This document shows, piece after piece, positions 7,927 through 10,489 of a stretch of 64,000 bases of DNA. The notes beneath the pieces were generated by a model. It saw nothing but the letters and a program-made list of their open reading frames with translations. It did no database searches and was not told the DNA's origin. Each line of letters begins with the position of its first letter. Position 1 is the stretch's first letter. This DNA is from Alphaproteobacteria bacterium (GTDB lineage Bacteria > Pseudomonadota > Alphaproteobacteria > UBA6615). The stretch is taken from the NCBI GenBank assembly GCA_039980135.1, contig JBDXCV010000003.1:310001-374000 (forward strand), read 5' to 3'. A program made the position numbers and the translations under genes.

Positions 7927-8622
7927 ATGATTTCAGCATTCTTCAAGGCACTCGGCGACTTCAGCGACCCGCGCATGCGCGCGGTTCTCTGGCAGTCGAT
8001 CGGCCTCAGCATCATCACCGCCATGCTCCTGTGGGGCGGCCTGTCCTGGCTCCTGTCGAGCACCCAGTTGATCGGCAACGTACCGTTCGTCGGCGGCTGG
8101 CTCGAGACCGCCGTGGACTGGCTTGGCTCCATCGCCGTCTTCGTCCTCGTTATTCTGCTGCTGCCCGCATTCCTGGGTATCTACGCAAGTCTTTACATCG
8201 AGACCATCTGCCGGGCCGTCGAGGCCCGCCACTATCCGCATCTCGCACCGCCCCGCAATCAGTCGATCGTGGAGGCGGTGATCATCGGCCTCAAATTCGG
8301 CGGGCTGCTGATCGTCTTCAATCTGCTGCTGCTGGTGTTGATCTTCTTCCCGCCGATCTACTTCATTGCCGGCTGGGCGGTGAACGGCCACCTGCTCGGC
8401 CGCGAGTATCTGGAAATGGTCGGGTTCCGTCGCATGGACCCCACACAACTGCGCGACTACCGGCTCAGAAAGCGCACCCCGATCTTCATGTCCGGCCTGA
8501 TGTTGGCGGTGGTCGTCTCGATCCCGGTCGTGAACTTGATACTGCCTTTGTTCGGAACGGCCATGATGTTGCACGTTTTCGAAGCAACCCGAGACCATGA
8601 TTCTGTTAATATCGTTGTATAA
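7927..8622 (+). CDS. EI24-domain (CysZ-like) membrane protein
   Basis: Integral membrane protein, 231 aa, of the EI24/CysZ superfamily. Several long hydrophobic segments are visible (about 25-45, 70-95, 120-155, 190-220). The characteristic PPIYFIAGWAVNGHLLGREYLEMVGFRRMD block follows the third. CysZ members import sulfate, but no cysteine-biosynthesis genes are nearby, so transport function is unproven. Divergent from the PfkB kinase with a 150-bp gap. Confidence 0.8.
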   Translation: MISAFFKALGDFSDPRMRAVLWQSIGLSIITAMLLWGGLSWLLSSTQLIGNVPFVGGWLETAVDWLGSIAVFVLVILLLPAFLGIYASLYIETICRAVEARHYPHLAPPRNQSIVEAVIIGLKFGGLLIVFNLLLLVLIFFPPIYFIAGWAVNGHLLGREYLEMVGFRRMDPTQLRDYRLRKRTPIFMSGLMLAVVVSIPVVNLILPLFGTAMMLHVFEATRDHDSVNIVV

Positions 8623-8757: not shown

Positions 8758-9255
8758 ATGAGCGCAGATGCCGAAGACACCGGCGAGGATGCAGGCAAGA
8801 ACAAGGCCGGTAACACCGAACCGCGACCGGAACTCGATCTGAGTTTCCTCGACCGCCAACCGGCGCGGGCAACCGATATTCCCAATTTCGGGGACCATCT
8901 CGAGCGGACAGACGACAACGAGCCCCGCCGCGTATCGGAGACCAAAACCCTGACGGTCGGGCGCGACATTTCGCTCAAGGGCGACATCACCGAATGTGAT
9001 TCCTTGATCGTCGAAGGACGGATCGAAGCAAAACTCGATAGCGCCCGCGCGCTGGAAGTCTCCCGCGGCGGCCGGTTCGACGGCAGTGCCAAGGTCGAGA
9101 CCGCGATCATTAGCGGGCGGTTCGACGGCGACCTCGACGTGGCGCGCGCGCTGCGCATCACCGCGTCGGGAAAAGTGACCGGCACGGTGTCCTACGGGCG
9201 CCTCGAGATCGAAAACGGAGGAGAAGTCGATGGCGATGTTTCGATACATCGCTAG
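8758..9255 (+). CDS. Bactofilin family cytoskeletal protein
   Basis: Bactofilin, a polymerising beta-helical cytoskeletal protein that scaffolds envelope enzymes; 165 aa. A disordered charged N-terminus (residues 1-55) precedes the repeated beta-helix core: TLTVGRDISLKGDITECDSLIVEGRIEAKL, then RGGRFDGSAKV, GRFDGDLDVARALRI, GKVTGTVSYGRLEI and NGGEVDGDVSI. ATG 8758 is chosen over an upstream in-frame TTG because CAGGGGG precedes it and the extra residues look unlike the family. The 3' end overlaps a 45-codon ORF by 26 bp, followed by a lipoprotein gene. Confidence 0.92.
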   Translation: MSADAEDTGEDAGKNKAGNTEPRPELDLSFLDRQPARATDIPNFGDHLERTDDNEPRRVSETKTLTVGRDISLKGDITECDSLIVEGRIEAKLDSARALEVSRGGRFDGSAKVETAIISGRFDGDLDVARALRITASGKVTGTVSYGRLEIENGGEVDGDVSIHR

Positions 9256-9367
9256 GCTCGCCGGCAGCACAAGCAGCACGCAGACCACGGACGGACCGTC
9301 CCGTGTGGCCGTTCTGTCCGCGGCCGGCATCACATTCCTGGTAACGATTTTCGTCTTCTCGGCCTGA
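9230..9367 (+). CDS. Predicted 45-aa single-pass membrane microprotein
   Basis: Short ORF (ATG 9230, TGA 9365-9367) overlapping the last 26 bp of the bactofilin gene in another frame. It has a strong Shine-Dalgarno sequence, GGAGGAG at about 9217-9223, six bases before the ATG. The product has a basic N-terminus (MAMFRYIARLAG), a polar linker (STSSTQTTDGPSR) and one hydrophobic helix (VAVLSAAGITFLVTIFVFSA) ending the protein. The lipoprotein ATG follows the stop by 4 bp, so it bridges bactofilin and lipoprotein in a coupled set. I do not recognise a family. A membrane anchor or assembly partner for the bactofilin is inference. Confidence 0.6.
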   Translation: MAMFRYIARLAGSTSSTQTTDGPSRVAVLSAAGITFLVTIFVFSA

Positions 9368-9371
9368 GTTC

Positions 9372-9806
9372 ATGGTTTTTCGCGGCGCATTCATGCTGGC
9401 GGCCATGCTTGCGCTCACCGCTTGCGCCGACGCATTCGCACCTGCGCCTGCAGAGCGACAAACCACAACCGCGCCGCCACCCGCCCGCACGGCACCCGGG
9501 GCTACCGGGGTCGCACCGGCGCGTCAGGCACCATCGGCACCGGCACCCCGGATATCGGATTTGATCGGGCTTGCGACCGCGCAGATCGATGCGCGGATCG
9601 GGACCCCCGAACTGATCCGGCGCGAAGGCGATGGCGAGGTCCGGATTTACCACAACGCGGCCTGTATCCTGCATGTCTTCGCCTACCCGCGCCGCGCCGG
9701 CAGCGCGGACCGCCAGGCAACCCATATCGAGGCGCGCACACCCGACGGCCAGATCGTCGGCGACGAAGCCGACGACTGTCTGGCGCGCTTCACGAAAAGC
9801 GGATGA
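9372..9806 (+). CDS. Small predicted lipoprotein of unknown function
   Basis: 144-aa protein with a lipoprotein signal peptide (MVFRGAFMLAAMLALTAC, lipobox LTAC, lipidated Cys at 18). A Pro/Ala-rich low-complexity linker (about 22-60) is followed by a small globular domain (DLIGLATAQIDARIGTPELIRREGDGEVRIY) with two later cysteines (AACILHVF, DDCLARF) that could pair in the periplasm. The ATG follows the microprotein stop by 4 bp, implying coupling with the bactofilin operon. The domain's LxxLxxxxGxPxxxRREG pattern recalls outer-membrane SmpA/OmlA-like modules, but this is weak. Confidence 0.75.
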   Translation: MVFRGAFMLAAMLALTACADAFAPAPAERQTTTAPPPARTAPGATGVAPARQAPSAPAPRISDLIGLATAQIDARIGTPELIRREGDGEVRIYHNAACILHVFAYPRRAGSADRQATHIEARTPDGQIVGDEADDCLARFTKSG

Positions 9807-9844: not shown

Positions 9845-10489
9845 CTAGGCGGTGACCTTCGCCTTGTAGCGGCACAGATCCTCAACCGCACACGACATAC
9901 AGTCGGGCTTGCGCGCCTTGCACACATAGCGGCCGTGCAGGATCAGCCAGTGGTGGGCGTGACGCAGATAGTGTTCCGGCACCCGCTTCATCAACCCATC
10001 CTCAACCTTGCGGACATCCTTGCCCGGCGCCAGGCCCGTGCGGTTCGACAGCCGGAAGATATGCGTATCCACGGCCATTGTCGGCTCGCCGAAGGCCGTG
10101 TTGAGGACAACATTCGCCGTCTTCCGGCCCACACCCGGCAGCGCCTCCAGCGCTGCCCGGTCCGCCGGGACCTCGCCATCATGCTCGGCCAGCAACCGTT
10201 CGCTCAGCGCGATCACGTTCTTCGCCTTGTTCCGGAACAGGCCGATCGTGCGGATGTGGCCGATCAGCGCGTCTTCGCCCAGCGCCACCATTTTCGCCGG
10301 CGTATCGACGGTTTTGAACAATTCGGCCGTCGCCTTGTTCACCCCGACATCCGTCGCCTGGGCCGACATCACGACGGCAACCAGCAGGGTGTACACATTG
10401 GTGTATTCAAGCTCGGTGGTCGGATGAGGATTCGCGGCCGACAGGCGGGCGAAAAACTCCTCGATCTCGTCTTTGGTCATGCGGGCCAT
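9845..10489 (-). CDS. nth: Endonuclease III (DNA glycosylase/AP lyase)
   Basis: Base-excision repair enzyme that removes oxidised pyrimidines and cuts at abasic sites; 214 aa, typical length. The helix-hairpin-helix LPGVGRKTANVVL carries the catalytic Lys, and the catalytic Asp lies in VDTHIFRLSNR. The [4Fe-4S] ligands are complete with spacing C-X6-C-X2-C-X5-C at the C-terminus (CKARKPDCMSCAVEDLC). Convergent with the lipoprotein gene. A short dyad (TCATGC-AAG-GCATGA, 10506-10520) lies just upstream of its start. Confidence 0.97.
   Translation of the reverse strand: MARMTKDEIEEFFARLSAANPHPTTELEYTNVYTLLVAVVMSAQATDVGVNKATAELFKTVDTPAKMVALGEDALIGHIRTIGLFRNKAKNVIALSERLLAEHDGEVPADRAALEALPGVGRKTANVVLNTAFGEPTMAVDTHIFRLSNRTGLAPGKDVRKVEDGLMKRVPEHYLRHAHHWLILHGRYVCKARKPDCMSCAVEDLCRYKAKVTA

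Follow-up and report, generated by a model that had tools for sequence, protein, structure and literature searches.

Conservation in 16 genomes and the pattern of substitution in its own reading frame identify a 45-codon open reading frame (ORF), which straddles the 3′ end of a bactofilin gene in the 64,000-nucleotide stretch of DNA analyzed here (the window), as a genuine protein-coding gene; judged from sequence, its product is an undescribed, lineage-restricted membrane protein. At a probability slightly short of even, this microprotein would be a C-tail-anchored inner membrane protein that serves in trans as an anchor or adaptor of the bactofilin encoded by the overlapping gene. Most bactofilins are thought to carry their own means of membrane attachment; were the anchor role true, a tiny gene for a separate anchor, overlapping that of the filament, would show that attachment can move to a second, regulatable component, and the microprotein would be a very small membrane anchor, open to testing. 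The locus contains the following features.

7927 to 8622, forward strand: EI24/CysZ-like membrane protein, conserved upstream neighbor.
8758 to 9255, forward strand: bactofilin, 165 amino acids (PF04519, E=1.2e-21; nearest solved chain, Caulobacter BacA 2n3d), with neither a canonical N-terminal membrane-targeting sequence nor a C-terminal tail.
9217 to 9223, forward strand: Shine-Dalgarno-like GGAGGAG, 6-nt spacer to the ATG at 9230, inside the bactofilin codons N-G-G-E.
9230 to 9367, forward strand: microprotein ORF, 45 amino acids; an in-frame ATG at 9236 (43 amino acids) is about equally conserved.
9296 to 9304, forward strand: codons of the juxtamembrane P23-S24-R25; P, S, R, and A27 do not vary among the 15 homologues that bear the motif.
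9305 to 9364, forward strand: codons of the predicted single transmembrane helix (residues 26 to 45) at the C-terminal end, supported by an AlphaFold2 helix and small residues at 27, 31, 32, and 35.
9372 to 9806, forward strand: small lipoprotein, 144 amino acids, lipobox LTAC, possible weak BamE/OsmE-like fold.
9845 to 10489, reverse strand: endonuclease III (nth), conserved convergent neighbor and synteny marker.

The gene layout proposed in the sequence-only reading is exact as read from the DNA: the ORF (ATG at 9230, TGA at 9365 to 9367; translation MAMFRYIARLAGSTSSTQTTDGPSRVAVLSAAGITFLVTIFVFSA) shares 26 bp with the bactofilin ORF, which ends at 9255, follows a GGAGGAG site, and stops 4 nt ahead of the lipoprotein ATG at 9372. 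The same reading had described tight coupling to the bactofilin and the lipoprotein, and this is borne out by the 26-bp overlap, the 4-nt gap, and the synteny shared in relatives. GGAGGAG alone counts for little, because it is made of the bactofilin codons N-G-G-E, a point in favor of a chance open frame. The choice of these codons among relatives is more informative. In genus g1, the second Gly codon of N-G-G-E is GGA (GGG once), which places GGAG ahead of the ATG at position −26 or −20; in genus g6, that N-G-G-E codon is GGC, and GGA is shifted to the next Gly, ahead of the g6 start at −8, in all six genomes. In other alphaproteobacteria, GGA accounts for 5 of 53 Gly codons at the first of these two positions and 3 of 55 at the second. 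In g7 and g9, where both are GGC, a ribosome-binding site is harder to recognize. Synonymous change over the last nine bactofilin codons is lower at the 26-nt overlap (0.29 versus 0.51 in g1; 0.30 versus 0.46 in g7/g9) and is not lowered at the 8-nt overlap of g6 (0.63 versus 0.68). Codon placement and synonymous constraint thus lend support to the microprotein start, as supporting evidence drawn from small numbers of related genomes. The start itself may be either 9230 or 9236, since both ATGs are about equally conserved and one genome (G006) has ACG at −26, with 9236 corresponding to its nearer usable ATG.

A different product could arise from the same DNA if a +1 frameshift at the bactofilin end fused the transmembrane tail to a fraction of the bactofilin, anchoring it in cis. 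Relative to the bactofilin, every intact homologue does use this +1 frame; however, neither a slippery site nor a stop context is conserved, the ATG and an upstream GGAG-like codon are conserved in g1 and g6, and in one genome (G017) an in-frame stop stands 6 nt ahead of the ATG. For lack of a slippery site, we set this very improbable reading aside.

Relatives were found by a genus and family search, and every locus was read individually; they are alphaproteobacterial metagenome assemblies, mostly draft and several of them marine by isolate names, in which assembly error is possible. Of 19 related genomes in which the locus is preserved, 16, from five genera, have an intact microprotein homologue at the same syntenic position. 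The gene order EI24-like, bactofilin, microprotein, lipoprotein, nth is found in g1 and g6 and largely also in g7, g9, and g4. Homologues measure 42 to 46 residues in g1, 31 in all six g6 genomes, 45 to 47 in g7/g9, and 31 in g4, where the sequence is divergent. Over the last 23 microprotein codons, pN/pS in the microprotein's own frame is 0.32 (g1), 0.42 (g6), and 0.09 (g7/g9), compared with 0.69 to 1.02 and 4.5 to 7.0 for the same codons in the two shifted forward frames, and second codon positions show almost no change. The sequence-only reading had named a broken ORF beside an intact bactofilin and lipoprotein in close relatives as the observation that would speak against the gene; such a locus occurs in one of seven genomes of the genus (G005), where the microprotein is frameshifted and stopless and the bactofilin intact, and the others do not show it. 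That one broken copy also favors a chance open frame, an explanation that conservation in 16 genomes, own-frame pN/pS values of 0.09 to 0.42, and a background of 1 in 66 for a transmembrane microORF at this place refute unless the alignments are wrong.

The sister genome of G005, G001, has the reverse arrangement, with an intact microprotein and most of the bactofilin core deleted. At this locus (L006, about 1345 to 1526), about 59 bactofilin codons are left, in frame and mainly from the C-terminal part, and the overlapping microprotein is intact. Either the bactofilin-microprotein pair would be nonobligate in that sublineage, or the module would be decaying there.

AlphaFold2 predicts a helix over residues 25 to 44 of the 45-residue microprotein (pLDDT about 92 to 96) and an N-terminal helix of low confidence. 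The C-terminal helix is kept across homologues, in agreement with the single transmembrane helix suggested from the sequence at the outset. With one helix at the extreme C terminus and nothing beyond it, the predicted architecture is that of a C-tail-anchored protein. Fifteen homologues share the core P-S-R-x-A-x-x-[S/T/G/A]-[A/G]-[A/G] followed by a hydrophobic tail; positions 31 and 32 are Ala or Gly in all 15 motif-bearing sequences, and T35 is found in 14. R5, R9, and R25 precede the helix and no charged side chain follows it, a placement suggesting a putative cytoplasmic N terminus. Searches of Pfam-A and NCBIfam with the microprotein gave no family up to E = 1, which agrees with the earlier view of the gene as overlooked. 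Profile searches across the class, in 289 and 385 genomes, gave no convincing homologue outside the family, and a plasmid search gave no match; a profile match in G149 (E=9e-4) was rejected, as it lies on a contig different from that of the bactofilin of that genome. Our literature search on bactofilin and microprotein found nothing, and that on bactofilin and small membrane protein found one review only. The microprotein illustrates how marine bacteria can have overlapping genes of fewer than 50 codons that go undescribed; the family is real, and missing from Pfam and NCBIfam, whether or not the anchor role holds.

The neighboring bactofilin is a clear PF04519 member (77.2 bits versus a gathering threshold of 27.9, residues 66 to 161) with an unusual N terminus. 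The membrane-targeting consensus at the N terminus of Pseudomonadota bactofilins is close to MFSKKKK, and an N-terminal peptide of this kind takes most bactofilins to the membrane (PMC12448750). By a fixed pattern, an MFxKK-type start was found neither in the bactofilin of the window nor in that of any microprotein-bearing relative (0 of 16); their first residues are MSADAED, MTSTND, or similar, and they have no long C-terminal tail of the usual kind. We surveyed 66 alphaproteobacterial bactofilin loci outside the family, many of them syntenic with the window, calling the targeting sequence by the same kind of fixed pattern: 57 carry an MFxKK-type start (MFGRKK, MFFKKK, MFRRKK, etc.), and a C-terminal transmembrane microORF lies downstream of the bactofilin in one. 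Six microprotein genomes have a second bactofilin, which starts (GTG)FRKTQ, FRKSQ, FRKKQ, FLKRK, or FLKRR and has no microORF; the MFRK/MFLK start of these proteins indicates that the ordinary targeting mode is still used elsewhere in these cells. The one in the genome of the window (G000:C3:151017-151412, L075) lies outside the window and is GTG-started, MFRKTQ, so that it is missed if only ATG is considered. Two genomes inside the family (G019, G013) and nine outside loci have neither targeting sequence nor microprotein; a missing targeting sequence therefore need not entail a microprotein.

Two observations concern the surveyed bactofilins. At L129 (G099), a 34-residue transmembrane ORF overlaps the bactofilin by 26 nt, with a lipoprotein just after; the targeting sequence is present there and P-S-R is absent. 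Considered as a parallel case, this ORF was rejected as a probable chance occurrence, for it lacks P-S-R, lies in AT-rich DNA, and has no relative for comparison among the genomes analyzed. In addition, about half of the targeting-sequence bactofilins (L086 to L111, L122 to L161) have an internal start codon with a 4- to 7-nt Shine-Dalgarno match, often of the form (K/R)GxxM(S/T/N) and about 35 to 65 codons in, which is suggestive. An internal start could yield an isoform without the targeting sequence, and the bactofilin of the window resembles such a short form.

In the nth tree, g1, g6, g7, and g9 share one clade that also includes g2, in which the microprotein is missing; the position of g4, elsewhere in the tree, is poorly supported. 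Because the four groups share this clade, the correlation between microprotein presence and loss of the targeting sequence may reflect a single event, and the genome counts are accordingly not independent. Given this shared ancestry, Fisher tests on the pattern, which counted 14 microprotein loci and so fewer than the final 16, carry no weight here; the complementary pattern probably represents one evolutionary event. A possible history, which we hold with some doubt, is that in one marine alphaproteobacterial lineage the filament lost its membrane-binding peptide and a dedicated tail-anchored microprotein of 31 to 47 residues, originating over the 3′ end of the filament's own gene, took on its attachment in trans.

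In the anchor model, translation of the microprotein would begin within the last part of the bactofilin message, through a ribosome-binding site of its own, by termination-reinitiation, or by both, and the microprotein would thereby be made alongside the bactofilin. The P-S-R segment, which is conserved, would lie on the cytoplasmic side and the C-terminal helix in the inner membrane. The most likely role of the microprotein would be that of a trans membrane anchor or adaptor to a bactofilin without a targeting sequence. Many anchors along one filament would provide avidity, and the small-residue patch of the helix may pair anchors with one another or with another membrane protein. We infer expression, topology, bactofilin binding, and an effect on localization from the sequences and their distribution.

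Precedents make trans anchoring physically plausible. The overproduced membrane anchor of PbpC restores, in trans, the localization of Caulobacter BacA without its targeting sequence (PMC12448750), and the recruitment of CcmA to the H. pylori envelope is the work of a transmembrane protein, Csd5 (PMC9507126). The Caulobacter BacA targeting peptide, MFSKQAKS (PMC12448750), has the job proposed here for the microprotein, to keep bactofilin polymers attached to the inner membrane; however, it acts in cis and has about 8 residues, whereas here the transmembrane helix comes from a separate gene, next to that of a bactofilin with no such peptide. PbpC is likewise bitopic and can replace the targeting sequence in trans if overproduced (PMC12448750), but it is a cell wall synthase with a recognizable N-terminal binding peptide, and the microprotein has no other domain. 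Helicobacter pylori Csd5, a single-pass protein whose cytoplasmic N terminus brings the bactofilin CcmA to the envelope (PMC9507126), may be likened to the microprotein by analogy; unlike the microprotein, which has no periplasmic part, it has a periplasmic SH3 domain that binds peptidoglycan. Built-in transmembrane helices, present in about 3% of bactofilins (PMC12448750), use a helix as the anchor, as is proposed here, although theirs is N-terminal and in the same polypeptide, and the helix at our locus belongs to a separate protein.

Several observations count against the anchor role. The conserved part comprises the P-S-R segment and the helix only, which would be a very small surface for filament binding; G005 keeps an intact bactofilin beside a broken microprotein, and G001 keeps the microprotein beside a 59-residue bactofilin remnant. 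That the G001 microprotein survives the loss of most of the bactofilin core also speaks for a small membrane protein of independent function that shares the operon and does not anchor, for instance one regulating the lipoprotein, the EI24-like protein, or a cell wall enzyme. Two further points favor such a protein, which we consider rather unlikely: the face of the helix that carries the small residues (A27, A/G31, A/G32, T35) is conserved beyond the need of a generic anchor, and the microprotein is linked to the lipoprotein as closely as to the bactofilin. However, the lipoprotein and the EI24-like gene accompany the bactofilin in many alphaproteobacteria without the microprotein. Because those genes persist without it, the distribution of the microprotein tracks the altered bactofilin rather than the lipoprotein or the EI24-like gene. 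For the same reason, the lipoprotein need not share the function of the microprotein.

The short distance to the lipoprotein gene could also mean that the main task of the ORF is to hand ribosomes on from the bactofilin to the start of the lipoprotein through termination-reinitiation, with little importance for its peptide. Most g1 and g6 lipoprotein starts lie about 3 to 8 nt from the microprotein stop, and the lipoprotein of the window has no obvious Shine-Dalgarno sequence of its own; on the other hand, the amino-acid-level constraint, the invariant P-S-R-x-A core, the retained helix, and lipoprotein starts tens of bases downstream in g7 and g9 make a mere coupling role improbable.

The sequence-only reading had envisaged a cytoskeleton-membrane-envelope link formed by the three coupled genes. 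Its cytoskeleton-membrane half gains from the finding that this bactofilin lacks a targeting sequence; the envelope half, in which the lipoprotein would take part, is possible on the grounds of synteny. A Pfam search with the lipoprotein gave no match, and a search of its sequence profile against the PDB matched a cap-repeat protein over a short length only and otherwise gave matches of the signal-peptide type. The lipoprotein model is confident over residues 51 to 140; the structure search gave, among its best matches, several BamE/OsmE chains at Z scores of 5 to 6 over about 60 to 70 residues, with unrelated chains scoring equally, and Foldseek E values no better than 0.025. The lipoprotein family is conserved between the bactofilin and nth in many alphaproteobacteria and has two invariant cysteines besides that of the lipobox.
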